DNA of 64,000 nt from Microterricola viridarii (GTDB lineage: Bacteria > Actinomycetota > Actinomycetes > Actinomycetales > Microbacteriaceae), in assembly GCF_900104895.1 (NCBI RefSeq), contig NZ_LT629742.1, forward strand, positions 2,604,001 to 2,668,000, in the 5' to 3' direction. Below are positions 33,232-54,089 of this stretch, one piece after another. The notes beneath the pieces were generated by a model. The model searched no databases. It was not told the origin of the DNA and worked only from the letters and a program-made list of their open reading frames with translations. The stretch's first letter is position 1. Each line of letters opens with the position of its first letter. The position numbers were made by a program, and so were the translations under genes.

Positions 33232-33277
33232 GTTGGCTTCGATCGCAGGCTCCCTCGAGCCAACGGGGGTCTCGACA
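33232..33277. repeat. solitary copy of the composite repeat module
   Basis: TTGGCTTCGATCGCAG, then GCTCCCTCGAGCCAACGG, closely matching the B module of the array at 49308-50459. GGTCTCGACA follows, resembling the start of its A module. It lies in a gap between convergent genes (fliW and glutathione peroxidase), right after the fliW terminator. Confidence 0.75.
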
Positions 33278-46477: not shown

Positions 46478-48463
46478 GTGCGCTTCCACGCGGGCGCCCT
46501 GCGCACGGCGGCACTCGTTGCCGCCGTGTTCGTGGCGACCCGCGTGGTCTACCGCATCGTCTTCGGCGGGGCGGGCGGCAGCGGCATCCTGCTGCTCGAC
46601 CTGCCCCGCATCCCGCTCGGCGGGCCGTTCGCGCACGTCGCCCTCTTCGGCCCCATCACGACGGGCGGCCTCTGGAACGCGGCGCTCAGCGCGCTGCCCT
46701 TCGCGGCCGTCATCCTTGCCTTCGGGCTCGTCAACGCCGTCGTCGACATGCGCAGGCTGTTCGTGCACGGCTCGACCCGCGGGCCGCTGCGGGCGATCAG
46801 CCGCTCGCTCGTGATCGCCTGGTCGACCGCCCCCGCGCTGGCGCAGGCTGTGCGCAGGCTCCGCCGGGCCGCCGCACTGCGCGGCGAACGCGGGAGAGCC
46901 GCGCTGCTGGTGCCCGTGTTCGAGCAGACCATCGAGCGGGCGCTCGCCCTCGCGGCTTCCATGGAGGTGCGCGGCTTCGCGGCGCGGCATCCGCTGCCAG
47001 CCGCAACGCCGCTCGCCGAGACGCACGCGCCGGTCGCAGAGTTGACGGATGCCGGCCTCCACCGCGACGGCGCGACGCTCCTTTCGGGAATGTCCTTCAC
47101 TATTACCCCCGGTACCTTTACGGTGCTCGTCGGGCCCACCGGCGCGGGAAAGTCCAGCCTGCTGCGCGGCCTCGACGGCCTGTTCCAGCACTTCGACGGC
47201 GGGCAGCAGAGCGGGCGCATCCGTGTTGCGGGCCTCGACCGGGCCACGACCCCTCCGCGCGAGACGGCCGCGTTCGTCGGCTCGGTCGCGCAGAACGTGC
47301 GCCTCGGCTTCGCCACCGCCACCGTGCACGAGGAGATCGGCTTCGCGCTGGCCGTGCAGGGCGTCGCGGAGCCGGCGCGCACCGCGCGGGTGCGGGCGAC
47401 GGCCGAGCTGCTCACGATCGGGCATCTGCTCGACCGCGACATCGTTGCGCTCTCGGCCGGCGAGGCGACCCTCGTCGCGATCGCCGCCGCGGTCGTCGCC
47501 CGGCCGCGGCTCCTGCTCGTCGACGAGCCACTCGCCGAGCTCGACGACGCGGCTCGCCTTCGGGTGTCCGCGGCGTTGGGCGGGCTCGTGCGGGAGCAGG
47601 GCGTCGCGGTGATCGTCGCCGAGCACCAGTGGGAGCTCTGGCAGCCGCTCGCCCAGCAGTGGCTGCAGATCGACAGTGGGCGGGTGCGGGTGTCCGCGGA
47701 GGCGCCCGCGGAGCTGCCCGCGGAACGACTCGAGGCCCCTCCTGCCGCTCCGGCCGCGGCCGCCTGTGCCCGGCATCCGCTCGCCCACGTTCGCGGGTTG
47801 AGCGTCACGCACGACGGAGCAACCGTCGTCGACGGAGCCGCGTTCGAGCTGGCCGCCGGCGAGCTCGTGGCGCTGTCCGGCCCGAACGGCGCGGGCAAGT
47901 CGAGCCTGCTCCTGGCGATGGCGCTGGCGGATGCCGCCGGAACCGTGCTCGTCGCCGGCGACGACGTCGCGGCGCTCGCCCCGGCCCAGCGGCGGCGGCG
48001 CATCGCGCTGGTGCCGGAGCGCGTCGACGAGCTCTTCCTTCAGACCAGCGTGGCGGCGGAGTGTCGGCGGGCGGACCGCGCCGACTCCCCCGCCGTGCCG
48101 ACCGACACGACCTTTGCGCGGCTGCTCGGGCAGGACGCGGGCAGCCCGAGCCACGTCGAGCTGTTGCTGCGGCATCCGCGGGACCTCTCGGCCGGGCAGC
48201 AGCTCTGCCTCGCCCTGGCGATCCAGTTGGCGCCGGGGCCTGACGTGCTGCTCGTCGACGAGCCGTCACGGGGCCTGGACCCGGCGACCCGGCGGATGGT
48301 CGGCCTCGCGCTGCAGCGTGCAGCCCTGCACGGAGAGCCGGAGGGCGGGCGAGCCGTGCTGTTCGCCACGCACGACGCCGGCTTCGCGCGGAGCTACGCC
48401 GAACGACGGCTGCGCCTGGCCGATGGCCGGCTGCAGGCCGAGGACGCGGCGGTGCCACGATGA
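46478..48463 (+). CDS. fused ECF transporter T component and two ATPases
   Basis: A 661-residue protein joining an EcfT-like membrane domain (residues 1-110, several helices, then a coupling-helix region AQAVRRLRRAAALRGERG) to two ABC domains. ABC 1 has VLVGPTGAGKSSLLRGLDGL and LSAGEATLVAI; ABC 2 has LSGPNGAGKSSLLLAMALAD and LSAGQQLCLAL with VDEPSRGLDPATRRM. The usual LSGGQ signature is altered in both. ECF transporters take up vitamins or metals with a separate S component, here the next gene. Confidence 0.88.
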   Translation: MRFHAGALRTAALVAAVFVATRVVYRIVFGGAGGSGILLLDLPRIPLGGPFAHVALFGPITTGGLWNAALSALPFAAVILAFGLVNAVVDMRRLFVHGSTRGPLRAISRSLVIAWSTAPALAQAVRRLRRAAALRGERGRAALLVPVFEQTIERALALAASMEVRGFAARHPLPAATPLAETHAPVAELTDAGLHRDGATLLSGMSFTITPGTFTVLVGPTGAGKSSLLRGLDGLFQHFDGGQQSGRIRVAGLDRATTPPRETAAFVGSVAQNVRLGFATATVHEEIGFALAVQGVAEPARTARVRATAELLTIGHLLDRDIVALSAGEATLVAIAAAVVARPRLLLVDEPLAELDDAARLRVSAALGGLVREQGVAVIVAEHQWELWQPLAQQWLQIDSGRVRVSAEAPAELPAERLEAPPAAPAAAACARHPLAHVRGLSVTHDGATVVDGAAFELAAGELVALSGPNGAGKSSLLLAMALADAAGTVLVAGDDVAALAPAQRRRRIALVPERVDELFLQTSVAAECRRADRADSPAVPTDTTFARLLGQDAGSPSHVELLLRHPRDLSAGQQLCLALAIQLAPGPDVLLVDEPSRGLDPATRRMVGLALQRAALHGEPEGGRAVLFATHDAGFARSYAERRLRLADGRLQAEDAAVPR

Positions 48464-49287
48464 GCCGCGCCACCTGGACAGCGCCCGCCCTCGCCACCGG
48501 CAGCCTGCTGGCGTTCGCGGGCTTCGCCTGGCCGCTGCTGGCCAGTGCCGTGCCGGCCGATGCCCAACGGGCCGCGCCATACGTCGCCATGGCCCTGGTG
48601 CCGGCCGCCATCGCCGTCGTCGCGCTGGCGCTCGACCGCGAGATGCACTCGGCCAAGGCCGTCGCACTGCTCGGTGTGCTCGCGGCAATCGGCGCGGGCA
48701 TCCGCATCGCCGGCGCCGGTGTCGGGGGCATCGAGGCAGTGTTCATCGTGCTGATCCTGGCCGGCCGCGCCTACGGCGCCCGCTTCGGCTTCCTGCTCGG
48801 GCTCATCACGATCGCGGTGTCGTCGCTGCTCTGGGGCGGATTCGGCCCGTGGACGCCGTTCCAGATGTTCGCCTGCGCCTGGGTGGCGGCGGGGGCCGGC
48901 CTGTTGCCGCGCATCCGGCCGCGGGTGCGCGGTGGGGCGGATGCGGCGTCCGCCAGTGCCGCGCTGGCCGCGCTTTCCGCGGTGAGGCGGGCGGGCAGAC
49001 TCGAGATCCTGATGCTCGCCGGGTACGGGGTCGCGGCGTCTTATCTGTTCGGGCTGCTGATGAACATCTGGTTCTGGCCGTTCGCGGTCGGCATGGGCAC
49101 GGACATCTCCTATGAGGCCGGCGCCCCGCTCGGCACGAACCTGGCCTCGTTCGCCCTGTACTCGCTGGTGAGCTCGACGCTGACGTGGGACACCGTGCGG
49201 GCCGTCACCACCGTGGTCGGGCTGGCCCTGCTCGGCCCGGCGCTGCTGGCCGCTCTCCGCCGCGCGAAGCTCCCCGCCGCGCGCTGA
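48460..49287 (+). CDS. ECF transporter S component (possibly cobalamin-type)
   Basis: A 275-residue membrane protein with six to eight hydrophobic segments: GSLLAFAGFAWPLLASAV, AYGARFGFLLGLITIAVSSL with WGGFGPWTPFQMFACAW, and a late pair near 175-250. WTPFQM-type loops occur in CbrT-like cobalamin S components. ATGA overlap with the T-A-A gene. metH lies close by, which fits cobalamin uptake, but cobalt or another ligand is not excluded. Confidence 0.8.
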   Translation: MSRATWTAPALATGSLLAFAGFAWPLLASAVPADAQRAAPYVAMALVPAAIAVVALALDREMHSAKAVALLGVLAAIGAGIRIAGAGVGGIEAVFIVLILAGRAYGARFGFLLGLITIAVSSLLWGGFGPWTPFQMFACAWVAAGAGLLPRIRPRVRGGADAASASAALAALSAVRRAGRLEILMLAGYGVAASYLFGLLMNIWFWPFAVGMGTDISYEAGAPLGTNLASFALYSLVSSTLTWDTVRAVTTVVGLALLGPALLAALRRAKLPAAR

Positions 49288-49307: not shown

Positions 49308-50459
49308 CGCTGGTCGAGTAGCGAGGAACGAGCGTATCGAGACCCGGTTGCGAGGTCTCGATACGGCGCTGGCGCGCCTACTCGACCAACGGGGATGGGC
49401 AGGCCCGGCGCTGTTGGCTTCGGTCGCTGGCGCTCCCTCGAGCCAACGGGGATGGGCCCTCCCCTACCCTCCGCACGCTGGCTAGAGGGAGCGAGGAACG
49501 AGCGACCGAAGCCCCGGAGCCAACCGGATCGGGTTGCGAGGTCTCGATACGGCGCTGGCGCGCCTACTCGACCAACGGGGAACGGCCCGGCGCTGTTGGC
49601 TTCGGTCGCTGGCGCTCCCTCGAGCCAACGGGGATGGGCCCTCCCCTCCCCACGTCGGCTAGAGGGAGCGAGGAACGAGCGACCGAAGCCCCGGAGCCAA
49701 CCGGATACGGTTGCGAGGTCTCGATACGGCGCTGGCGCGCCTACTCGATCAACGCTGAGGGGCACGGCCGGCGCTGTTGGCTTCGGTCGCTGGCGCTCCC
49801 TCGAGCCAACCGGGATGGGCCCTCCCCTCCGCACGTTGGCTAGAGGGAGCGAGGAACGAGCGACCGAAGCCCCGGGGCCAACCGGACCCGGTTGCGAGGT
49901 CTCGATACGGCGCTGGCGCGCCTACTCGACCAACGGGGAGGGGCGCGGCAGGGCGGACGGTGTTGGCTTCGGTCGCTGGCGCTCCCTCGAGCCAACGGGG
50001 ATGGGCCCTCCCCTCCCCTCCGCACGCTGGCTAGAGGGAGCGAGGAACGAGCACCCGAAGCCCCGGAGCCAACCGGACCAGGTTGCGAGGTCTCGATACG
50101 GCGCTGGCGCGCCTACTCGACCAACGGAGATGGGCACGCCCGGCGGTGTTGGCTTCGGTCGCTGGCGCTCCCTCGAGCCAACGGGAGACCCCACGCCCGC
50201 CGGACCGCGCCACGCCCCTCCGCACGCTGGCTAGAGGGAGCGAGGAACGAGCGACCGAAGCCCCGGAGCCAACCGGGTCCGGTTGCGAGGTCTCGATACG
50301 GCGCTGGCGCGCCTACTCGACCAACGGGGAGGGGCATGACTGGCGGTGTTGGCTTCGGTCGCTGGCGCTCCCTCGAGCCAACGGGAGTTTCCACGTCGGC
50401 TCGAGGGAGCGAGGAACGAGCGACCGAAGCCCCGGAGCCAACGGGAGCTCCAGCGCCGG
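49308..50459. repeat. six-unit array of composite inverted repeats
   Basis: About 1.15 kb between the convergent S-component and metH genes. The A module is GGTCTCGATACG, core, CCTACTCGACCA; the B module is TTGGCTTCGGTCG, core, CTCCCTCGAGCCAA. Each unit is A, then forward B, a short GATGGGCC-like spacer and an inverted B; unit starts near 49346, 49532, 49709, 49890, 50081 and 50281 (spacing 177-200 bases). An inverted A copy opens the array. Forward copies have a GCTGGCGC core and inverted ones CGAGGAACGAG. ORFs read here are repeat artefacts. Confidence 0.9.
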
Positions 50460-50462
50460 CGG

Positions 50463-53400
50463 CTAGACCGAGAAGTACTTGGCCTCGGGGTGGTGGAAGA
50501 CGAACGCATCGGTGGACTGCTCCGGGTGCAGCTGCAGCTCCTCCGAGAGCACGACACCCATCCGCTCCGGCTTCAGCAGCTCGACGACCTTGCGGCGGTC
50601 CTCCATCTCGGGGCAGGCCGGGTAGCCGAGCGAGAAGCGGGCACCGCGGTACTCCAGCTTGAACAGCCCGGCGACATCCGTCGGTTCCTCGCCGGCCAGG
50701 CCGAGCTCGGCACGGACCCGCGAGTGCCAGTACTCGGCCAGGGCCTCGGTCAGCTGCATCGCGAGCCCGTTCAGCTCCAGGTAGTCGCGGTACTTGTTCT
50801 CCGCGAACAGCTTCGACGTCGTCTCGCTCACCCGCTGCCCGGCGGTCACCAGCTGCACGGCGACGACATCCGTCTGCCCGCTCTCCTTCCCGCGCACGAA
50901 GTCGGAGAGGCACAGGTGCCGGTCGCGGCGCTGACGGGGGAAGGTGAAGCGCAGCCGCTCGCTGCCGACCGCTCCGCCGGAGCCGCCGTCCGGTGCCAGC
51001 AGGCCCGGCACGCCGAGCAGCCCGGCCGCATCGTCGCCGTGGTGCAGCACGACCATGTCGTTGCCGTCCGCGACGACCGGGAAGTAGCCGTAGGCGACGG
51101 AGGCATCCAGCATGCCCTCGGCGAGGATCCGGTCGAGCCAGTAGCGCAGCCGCGGCCGACCCTCGGTGTCGACGAGCTCCTGGTAGCTGGCGCCGTCGTC
51201 GCCGCGTCCCGGCTTCAGCCCCCACTGGCCGAGGAACGTCGCCCGCTCGTCCAGGAAGGCCGAGTACTCGGCCAGGGCGATGCCCTTGACGATGCGGGTG
51301 CCCCAGAACGGCGGCACGGGAACAAGATTGTCCAGCGCGACATCCGAGCGGGCGGGCAGGTCCTCCGGCTCCGTCACAATCAGCTGGCTCTGCCGGTGGA
51401 TGCGCTTCTTCAGCGCGGGCAGGCCGACGCTCTCCGGGTCGGCGCCGCGGGCGATCGCCACGAGCGGCTCCATCAGGGCGAGGCCCTCGAAGGCATCGCG
51501 GGCGTAGCGCACGGTGCCGTCGAAGAGCGCGTCGAGGTCGTCCTCGACGTAGCTGCGGGTGAGGGCGGCGCCGCCGAGGATGATCGGCCAGCGCTTGGCG
51601 AAGCCGCGGTTCTGCAGCTCGAGCAGGTTCTCCTTCATCACGACGGTCGACTTGACGAGCAGCCCGCTCATGCCGATGACGTCGGCGTTGTGTTCCTCTG
51701 CGGCCGCGATGAACTCGTTGATCGTCTGCTTGATGCCGATGTTCACGACCGTGTAGCCGTTGTTGGAGAGAATGATGTCGACGAGGTTCTTGCCGATGTC
51801 GTGCACGTCGCCGCGCACGGTGCCGATCACCATCGTGCCCTTGCCCGCGGCATCCGACTTCTCCATGTGCGGCTCGAGCAGGGCGACGGCGTTCTTCATC
51901 ACCTCGGCGGACTGCAGCACGAACGGCAGCTGCATCTCGCCTGCGCCGAAGCGCTCCCCGACCACCTTCATGCCCTCCAGCAGGTGCAGGTTGATGATGT
52001 CGATGGCGCTCAGCCCACCGGCGCGGGCCAGGTCGAGGTCGCCCTCGAGCCCCTTGCCCTCGCCGTCGATGATGCGGCGCTCCAGCCGCTCGCCCACCGG
52101 CAGCGCGGCCAGCTCCGCGGCCCGCTGGTCCTTGAGCGCCGCGGCGTCCACCCCGGCGAAGAGGTCGAGCATGGTGGAGAGCGGGTCGTAGACGAGCGTG
52201 CCGTCTGCGTCGTACTCGCGGCGGTCCCAGACGAGGTCGAGGGCGACCTTGCGGCGGTCCTCCGGCACGGATGCCAGCGGCACGATCTTCGCGGCGTCGA
52301 CGATCGCGCTCGTCAGCCCAGCCTCGACTGCCTCGTGCAGGAACACCGAGTTCAGCACCGAGCGGGCGGCCGGGTTGAGGCCGAAGGAGACGTTGGAGAC
52401 GCCGAGCGTCGTGTTGATGCCCGGGTACTTCGCGGTGATCTGGCGGATCGCCTCGATCGTCTCGATGGCGTCGCGGCGGGTCTCCTCCTGGCCGGTGGCG
52501 ATCGGGAAGGTGAGGGCGTCCACGATGATGTCCTCCACCCGCATGCCCCACTCGCCAATCAAGGTGTCGACCAGCCGGGAGGCGATGGCGACCTTCGTCT
52601 CGGTGGTGCGGGCCTGGCCCTGCTCGTCGATGGTCAGGGCGATGACGGCGGCGCCGTGCTCCTTGACGAGCGGCATGATGCGGGCGAAGCGGCTGGTGCC
52701 GCCCTCGCCGTCCTCGAAGTTGACCGAGTTGACGACGGGGCGGCCGCCGATCAGCTCGAGGCCGGCCTGCAGCACGGCGGGCTCGGTGGAGTCGATGACG
52801 AGCGGCAGCGTGGAGGCGCTGGCCAGCCTAGACACGATGGAGCTCATGTCCTCTGCCCCGTCGCGGCCGACGTAGTCGGTGCAGACGTCGAGCATGTTGG
52901 CGCCGTCGCGCACCTGGTTGCGGGCGATGTCGACGCAGTCGTCCCAGCGGCCGTCGAGCATCGCCTCCCGGAAGGCGCGCGAGCCGTTGGCGTTGGTGCG
53001 CTCACCGATCGAGAGGTAGGAGTTCTCCTGCTCGAAGCTGACGTGCTGGTACAGGCTGGCGACGCCCGGGTCGGCCTCCAGCACCCGTGTGGCGGGCGCG
53101 GCGCCCTGCAGCCGCTCGACGACGGCCCGCATGTGTGCGGGCGTCGTGCCGCAGCATCCGCCGATCAGGCCCAGGCCGAACTCCCTGACGAACTGCTCGT
53201 GCGCCGTCGCCAGCTCGACCGGGGTGAGCGGGTAGCTGGCCCCGTTGGCGCCGAGCACCGGCAGGCCGGCGTTCGGCATGCACATGACGGGGACGGTGGC
53301 GAATTTGGAGAGGTGCCGCAGATGCTCGCTCATCTCGGCGGGGCCGGTGGCGCAGTTGAGGCCGATCGCGTCGATGCCGAGCGGCTCCAGCGCGGTGAGC

Positions 53401-54089
53401 GCGGCGCCGATCTCGCTGCCCATCAGCATGGTGCCGGTCGTCTCGACGGTCACCTCGACGAAGATGGGCAGGCGGATGCCGCTGGCGGCGATGGCCGCCC
53501 GGCATCCGTTGACCGCCGACTTGGTCTGCAGCAGGTCTTGCGAGGTCTCGATGAGGAAGGCGTCTGCACCACCGCGGATCAGGCCGAGCGCCTGCTCGGC
53601 GAACGTCGCCTTGAGGTGCGCGTAGGTGGTGTGGCCGAGGCTCGGCAGCTTCGTGCCCGGACCCATCGATCCGAGCACCCAGCGCTGGCGGCCGTCGCGC
53701 GCCTCCCAGGCCTCTGCCCGCTCGCGGGCGATGGCCGCGCCGGCGTGGGCGAGCTCCTCGATGCGGTCGTCGATGTTGTAGTCGGAGAGGTTCGACCAGT
53801 TGGCGCCGAAGGTGTTGGTCTCGACGGCGTCGATGCCCGTCTCGAAGTAGGCGTCGTGGATGGCGCCGATCATGTCGGGCCGGCTGACGTTGAGGATCTC
53901 GTTGCAGCCCTCGAGCTGCTGGTAGTCCGCGAGGCTCGGCTCGTGCTCCTGCAGCATGGTGCCCATCGCGCCGTCGGCGATCACGACCCGCGAGGCGAGT
54001 GCGTCCAGCAGGGCCTGGGCGCGGGCGGGGCGCACGGCCTGCGAGATGTCGGTGCTCGTGCGGGTCTCGGTCGGTGCGGCGTCGGTCAC
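50463..54089 (-). CDS. metH: cobalamin-dependent methionine synthase MetH
   Basis: A 1208-residue MetH, which transfers a methyl group from methyltetrahydrofolate to homocysteine through methylcobalamin. Order: homocysteine-binding barrel (DGAMGTMLQEHEP; LNCATGP and GGCCGTTPAHM with zinc ligands), pterin-binding domain (SIGERTNANGSRAF), cobalamin-binding domain with DVHDIGKNLVDIILSNNGY (His lower ligand), and AdoMet reactivation domain at the C-terminus (RGARFSLGYPACPEMEDR). The start is GTG 54089, which removes a 37-residue upstream extension. No cobalamin riboswitch was recognised upstream. Confidence 0.96.
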   Translation of the reverse strand: MTDAAPTETRTSTDISQAVRPARAQALLDALASRVVIADGAMGTMLQEHEPSLADYQQLEGCNEILNVSRPDMIGAIHDAYFETGIDAVETNTFGANWSNLSDYNIDDRIEELAHAGAAIARERAEAWEARDGRQRWVLGSMGPGTKLPSLGHTTYAHLKATFAEQALGLIRGGADAFLIETSQDLLQTKSAVNGCRAAIAASGIRLPIFVEVTVETTGTMLMGSEIGAALTALEPLGIDAIGLNCATGPAEMSEHLRHLSKFATVPVMCMPNAGLPVLGANGASYPLTPVELATAHEQFVREFGLGLIGGCCGTTPAHMRAVVERLQGAAPATRVLEADPGVASLYQHVSFEQENSYLSIGERTNANGSRAFREAMLDGRWDDCVDIARNQVRDGANMLDVCTDYVGRDGAEDMSSIVSRLASASTLPLVIDSTEPAVLQAGLELIGGRPVVNSVNFEDGEGGTSRFARIMPLVKEHGAAVIALTIDEQGQARTTETKVAIASRLVDTLIGEWGMRVEDIIVDALTFPIATGQEETRRDAIETIEAIRQITAKYPGINTTLGVSNVSFGLNPAARSVLNSVFLHEAVEAGLTSAIVDAAKIVPLASVPEDRRKVALDLVWDRREYDADGTLVYDPLSTMLDLFAGVDAAALKDQRAAELAALPVGERLERRIIDGEGKGLEGDLDLARAGGLSAIDIINLHLLEGMKVVGERFGAGEMQLPFVLQSAEVMKNAVALLEPHMEKSDAAGKGTMVIGTVRGDVHDIGKNLVDIILSNNGYTVVNIGIKQTINEFIAAAEEHNADVIGMSGLLVKSTVVMKENLLELQNRGFAKRWPIILGGAALTRSYVEDDLDALFDGTVRYARDAFEGLALMEPLVAIARGADPESVGLPALKKRIHRQSQLIVTEPEDLPARSDVALDNLVPVPPFWGTRIVKGIALAEYSAFLDERATFLGQWGLKPGRGDDGASYQELVDTEGRPRLRYWLDRILAEGMLDASVAYGYFPVVADGNDMVVLHHGDDAAGLLGVPGLLAPDGGSGGAVGSERLRFTFPRQRRDRHLCLSDFVRGKESGQTDVVAVQLVTAGQRVSETTSKLFAENKYRDYLELNGLAMQLTEALAEYWHSRVRAELGLAGEEPTDVAGLFKLEYRGARFSLGYPACPEMEDRRKVVELLKPERMGVVLSEELQLHPEQSTDAFVFHHPEAKYFSV

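Follow-up and report, generated by a model that had tools for sequence, protein, structure and literature searches.

The question raised by this locus is what an array of composite inverted repeats is doing between two convergent genes, and what put it there. The window analysed is a stretch of 64,000 nucleotides of Microterricola viridarii, positions 2604001-2668000 of a 3.84-Mb single-contig genome. The tandem array occupies 49308-50449 of the window and contains 19 modules, between gene ends at 49287 (+) and 50463 (-). The initial annotation, made from the letters alone, described six units holding two hairpin-forming module types, A and B, and the copies, spacings and arms bear this out. 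Six 60-nt A-containing copies are present, with start-to-start distances of 186, 177, 181, 191 and 200 bp. The order is one A-only unit followed by repeats, each 177-200 bp long, of the unit B(inv)-A(fwd)-B(fwd) (Table 1). The A-type arms are TCTCGATACG..CTACTCGACCA, and the B-type arms are GGCTTCGGTCG..CTCCCTC[G/T]AGCC, the 5' arm being also written (GG)CTTCGGTCG. A further claim was that the core sequence depends on orientation. The difference is real, with CTGGCG on forward copies and CTCGTTCCTCG on inverted copies, but it is a matter of two hairpin variants set head-to-head and not of orientation as such, and one A-type hairpin (49311-49342) is inverted as well. A lone degenerate B-type hairpin (CTTCGATCGCAGGCTCCCTCGAGCC) lies at 33237-33261 (+) of the window, in another convergent gap.

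Table 1. Modules of the array and the convergent genes on either side of it, in window coordinates.
Feature	Position	Strand	Remark
Upstream convergent gene, 275-aa membrane protein	48460-49287	+	Adjoins gene for an ECF-type ABC ATPase; function judged from inspection alone
A-type hairpin 'a', core CTCGTTCCTCG	49311-49342	-	Inverted doublet with next element, 13-bp gap
A-type hairpin 'b', core GCGCTGGCGCGC	49356-49388	+	
B-type hairpin, core CTGGCG	49418-49444	+	
B-type hairpin, core CTCGTTCCTCG	49480-49511	-	
A-type hairpin 'b'	49542-49574	+	
B-type hairpin	49600-49626	+	
B-type hairpin, inverted	49657-49688	-	
A-type hairpin 'b'	49719-49751	+	One arm change
B-type hairpin	49781-49807	+	
B-type hairpin, inverted	49838-49869	-	
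A-type hairpin 'b'	49900-49932	+	
B-type hairpin	49967-49993	+	
B-type hairpin, inverted	50029-50060	-	Degenerate arm (CTTCGGGTG)
A-type hairpin 'b'	50091-50123	+	
B-type hairpin	50153-50179	+	
B-type hairpin, inverted	50229-50260	-	
A-type hairpin 'b'	50291-50323	+	
B-type hairpin	50353-50379	+	
B-type hairpin, inverted	50398-50429	-	Last module
Downstream convergent gene, about 1,200 aa, methionine synthase MetH-like	50463-54089	-	Translation inspected

The hairpins of all types share a common plan when read on the GA-rich strand. Above a 5' tail CCCG[CT] and a basal stem come tandem GA/GA mismatches flanked by short Watson-Crick steps, and the hairpin is closed by a small loop at the apex (GAA, GCCA, CUUG and variants). 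The commonest unit is a doublet of two A-type hairpins facing each other across a median gap of 36 bp; its ends are inverted (CCCGYTGGTCGAGTAG) and its spacer is conserved in part. The a/b doublets are mostly of one polarity (59, versus 12 of the opposite one). These are high-copy, extragenic, palindromic repeats of 20-40 bp whose main unit is an inverted doublet with a spacer, and the A-type doublet is a REPIN architecture. The foot of the hairpin carries no GTAG or CGTC tag; it reads CCCG[CT], and GTAG occurs inside the A stem. The inverted ends could also suggest a MITE, and no target-site duplication was found at the sites inspected. Between genera, the arms vary in a compensatory way (GGTC/GACC, GGTT/AACC, GCTC/GAGC, GATC/GATC, CGTC/GACG) while the apical core is constant. 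Covariation is informative for the arms only, since the core is fixed by the pattern matching, and it amounts to 10 double-changed cells versus 2.1 after shuffling (0 of 500 shuffles).

The modules are clearly not confined to the array. The genome-wide motif search that had been proposed gave 140 matches to the A pattern (74 + 66) and 156 to the B pattern (84 + 72), with none to either reversed pattern, an abundance far above chance. An element census of 1.19 Mb of stretches around sites, in which B sites beyond about 2.99 Mb are represented in part, with genes called by a home-made codon-usage gene caller, contained at least 354 A/B elements, 341 of the 354 being intergenic. Within those stretches, elements occur in 52 of 177 convergent gaps (29%), 45 of 680 tandem gaps and 4 of 175 divergent gaps (2%), the convergent and divergent classes differing at p = 2.5e-13. 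Other genera of the order show the same strong convergent bias (38 of 79 convergent versus 5 of 110 divergent gaps; p = 9e-13). The median distance from an element to the stop codon is 52 bp. With the replication origin placed by dnaA, the GA strand of 'a' elements serves as template for the lagging strand at 35 sites out of 48, versus 13 with the opposite orientation (p = 0.002); this was the one biased class of five tested, the bias not being significant in the others. About 7 kb from dnaA, an unusually long 3.3-kb gap (290009-293263) holds 14 mostly CAAG/CACG-core B-type elements. The window array belongs to both families as one of their large tandem representatives, in a 3' position that is either tolerated or useful.

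Other origins and functions were considered and set aside. No match to the A/B elements was found in plasmid or phage collections, and no Rfam family scored above its gathering score. A strand-specific RNA function was suggested by single elements in tandem gaps of this genome, where mRNA tended to carry the GA strand, but the split in other genera was 13 versus 17.

The elements have candidate protein-coding partners. Stand-alone GIY-YIG nuclease genes number exactly two in this genome, and each lies within one of the two hairpin families. One, at 1222520-1222822, encodes 100 aa and has A-type doublets on both sides; the gap that holds it is among the few divergent ones with elements, and its stop codon falls within the downstream element. 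The other, at 1737665-1737967, has B-type elements on both sides. Such an arrangement is rare, elements occurring on both sides of only 12 of 1,084 called genes. The partner protein matches the GIY-YIG domain PF01541 at E = 5.7e-19, and its candidate catalytic residues, assigned by analogy, are Y5, Y15, R25 and E62, which are retained in at least 51 of 53 nuclease sequences. The partner proteins have the domain and size of UPF0213/YhbQ-type proteins (PDB 1zg2, 1ywl), although those structures come from low-GC Gram-positive bacteria. A B-flanked paralogue also occurs in three congeners, and in two there is a third paralogue with a different palindrome around it, type E (GAGC[TC]TGTCGA..TCGACA[AG]GCTC), a family that surrounds other GIY-YIG paralogues too. 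The type E family is widespread, with 126 pattern matches on both strands in a single genome.

The association holds across relatives. At least two A, B or E motifs lie within 400 bp of 44 of the 55 stand-alone GIY-YIG loci; in an unbiased 400 kb of one repeat-rich congener, at least two motifs are found in 2.0% of random windows, and on both sides in 0.15%. On the nuclease tree, hairpin types group together, requiring 12 changes versus 22.1 after shuffling (0 of 200), and the B clade has a support of 96 in a tree that rests on few columns. The E type allowed a prediction, which mostly held: abundant E elements wherever a genome has a nuclease flanked by them. E-type dimers number 55, 38, 29, 7, 2, 13, 126 and 1 in genomes with such a nuclease and 0-4 in 21 of 22 others (Mann-Whitney p = 7e-5), the exception being G063, with 27 dimers and no E-type nuclease detected. 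In Agreia, A-core copies number 16-17 in genomes with the A-nuclease, 9, 5 and 0 in those with the E-nuclease, and 0 in one without the gene. A nuclease match is present in 12 of 14 genomes with at least three core copies versus 80 of 386 (p = 7e-7), and the p-values for co-occurrence are optimistic, related genomes not being independent. In two repeat-bearing members of the family and six core-bearing genomes of other families, the only GIY-YIG proteins are long, of UvrC-like length, and therefore the repeats can exist without the partner.

The position of the nuclease differs between related species. Here, the A-type unit of hairpin, nuclease and hairpin spans 0.78 kb (1222234-1223011). In the related species G231, the orthologous site is empty, the genes on either side being only a few bases apart, and the A-type nuclease unit is present beside different genes. 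In G129 and G063, a third pair of genes adjoins it. The unit sites compared showed no target duplication. The simplest account is that the nuclease gene moved together with its hairpins; loss and independent gain could also be responsible.

The comparison with relatives that had been proposed found sites in common and array lengths that differ. Sister species have nearly all sites in common, with different numbers of units. Flanks match M. pindariensis at about 95-97%, and the window array has 19 modules here versus about 7 there. The arrays differ as if by tandem duplication, or by recombination between short direct repeats. At shared simple sites, 5 of 336 element positions changed versus 117 of 1105 spacer positions in a comparison filtered for a motif match in both species; with no such filter, the counts are 105 of 1631 and 626 of 3600. 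Comparing with G231 unfiltered gave no information, as the arrays differ. Some elements stand at sites that are empty in relatives. No clean single-element insertion or target-site duplication was seen, and most copy changes look like duplication or recombination. At three sites, the relative has an element where this genome has an unrelated strong hairpin. At 668832-669067, where M. pindariensis has an A-type doublet, the counterpart here is a perfect inverted repeat of 24 bp (GTCGAGACTGCGCGACTTGTAGTTCC), unrelated to the doublet, together with a second hairpin. It seems that one intergenic hairpin can replace another in its entirety.

We consider it probable that the array belongs to two families of REP-like repeats, A and B, served by cognate GIY-YIG nucleases, with cutting of the hairpin by the nuclease, spread through repair or copying, and growth of arrays by tandem duplication. 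The cutting and mobilisation are what we infer. The array hairpins would be non-autonomous, A being cognate to the nuclease at 1222520-1222822 and B to that at 1737665-1737967. Each nuclease would recognise its own hairpin, probably when extruded in a single strand of DNA, for example the template of the lagging strand, and would cut there. Repair or copying after the cut may then seed new hairpins or move the unit, and local arrays would afterwards lengthen by tandem duplication. Elements would persist mainly at the 3' ends of genes, where the hairpin could act as a bidirectional transcription terminator, and such a secondary role is plausible. More tentatively, and with somewhat more doubt than belief, we suggest a mobile system of the REP type with a GIY-YIG nuclease as its driving enzyme. 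This would comprise a minimal autonomous unit of ~0.8 kb (a nuclease of ~100 aa between its own hairpins), many non-autonomous doublets and several parallel pairs per genome, with no HUH, DDE or recombinase enzymes.

The nearest known relatives of the repeat-linked nucleases are, we presume, the Ssn nucleases of Neisseria, reportedly the subject of work by Chenal and colleagues in 2025. Ssn is a small GIY-YIG nuclease that cuts single-stranded DNA at genome-repeated NTS sites. The likeness is that a small GIY-YIG nuclease gene is tied to or adjoins a genome-repeated sequence, as at the 44 loci counted above. The repeats here could accordingly be targets of a site-specific single-strand nuclease that cuts incoming or exposed DNA in recombination or DNA uptake, with the linkage reflecting regulation or homing of the nuclease gene and no transposition of repeats. 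The shared superfamily, the adjoining gene and copy changes that resemble recombination all suit this reading, which we nevertheless think unlikely. The nuclease unit is found at different locations in different species and elements stand at sites empty in relatives, and therefore something disperses the elements. The system here also differs from Ssn in having REPIN-like doublets, a separate hairpin family for each nuclease paralogue and a unit at different loci in related species.

Less likely still, the hairpins are host elements of gene 3' ends, either bidirectional terminators lacking a U-tract or mRNA stabilisers, kept by selection, and the linkage to the nuclease is incidental. The hairpins do have the GC-rich, foldable form and the 3' position of intrinsic terminators, and they are followed by CGGGGA... 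with no T run. The convergent over divergent preference fits, as do the lower divergence of elements than spacers and the three sites with an unrelated hairpin in place of the relative's element. Other hairpins also occur in 22 of 52 convergent gaps with elements versus 49 of 59 (p = 1e-5). However, that deficit is weaker once masked space is controlled (P = 0.01 for stems of at least 8 bp and 0.175 for at least 10), tandem gaps overall show no deficit, and promoter avoidance accounts equally well for the placement. The embedding and relocation of the nuclease are left unexplained. Transcription insulation, one of the roles first proposed, is on this evidence plausible, resting on the convergent bias and on a scarcity of other hairpins beside elements that weakens when space is controlled. 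An array akin to BIME-2, in which gyrase or nucleoid-protein sites control supercoiling between the convergent genes, would suit the preference of arrays for convergent gaps, but it predicts neither nuclease linkage nor type-matched copy number, and we regard it as very improbable.

Least probable of all is a classical REP/REPIN system moved by a RAYT (Y1) transposase since lost or missed: the anatomy is very close to REPINs (PMC3116915), but PF01797 (Y1) has no match in this genome, occurs in 3 of 400 family genomes, none of which carries the core, and in 0 of 22 core-rich genomes, with positive controls recovered, and only IS200-type TnpA is reported in Actinobacteridae (PMC6006769). The RAYT/Y1 partner that had been suggested is thus largely refuted, being found neither in this genome nor in any repeat-bearing genome tested. 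The broader proposal of REP-like mobile elements moved in trans keeps its support from copy number, extragenic position, palindromes and inverted doublets, but the embedded gene is a GIY-YIG nuclease.

The resemblance to REPINs and BIMEs with RAYT in Pseudomonas and E. coli (PMC3116915, PMC2817692) extends to short extragenic palindromes in inverted doublets, a spacer that is less conserved, arrangement in tandem arrays, compensatory changes in the stems, location at 3' ends and between convergent genes, and an enzyme gene flanked by cognate repeats. The differences are a stand-alone GIY-YIG protein instead of Y1, a foot without GTAG, and a constant apical core with variable stems. The GTAG- and CGTC-tagged palindromes of PMC3733652 have the same size, dimer organisation and placement, and in both cases the ends of elements can supply TAG stop codons; the CGTC families likewise have no known transposase. 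Those palindromes differ from the present ones, which have the 5' tail CCCG[CT] and tandem GA/GA mismatches in the stems, and no actinobacterial genus that we searched for is named in the text of that paper. A literature search found no paper with the A/B motifs and none tying GIY-YIG proteins to REPs.

To our knowledge, REP and REPIN elements have been explained by RAYT, while several repeat families, especially in Actinobacteria, had no enzyme. A type-matched GIY-YIG nuclease inside each hairpin family is a candidate enzyme for such orphan repeats, and it suggests that these bacteria use a different enzyme from RAYT to spread or maintain REP-like repeats. If true, this would mean that an arrangement of repeats plus enzyme evolved convergently on an unrelated nuclease fold; it would also be a source of new hairpin- or sequence-specific nucleases.

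Across the class, the core GCGAGGAACGAGC occurs in 118 of 297 genomes, single matches being partly chance or coding. At a series of loci in other actinobacterial families, it is carried on unrelated symmetric stems, many between convergent genes, and neither a stand-alone GIY-YIG gene nor a Y1 transposase was found in those genomes. One nocardioid-type genome has a GIY-YIG gene amid a different repeat, with a GAGGAACGAG core.
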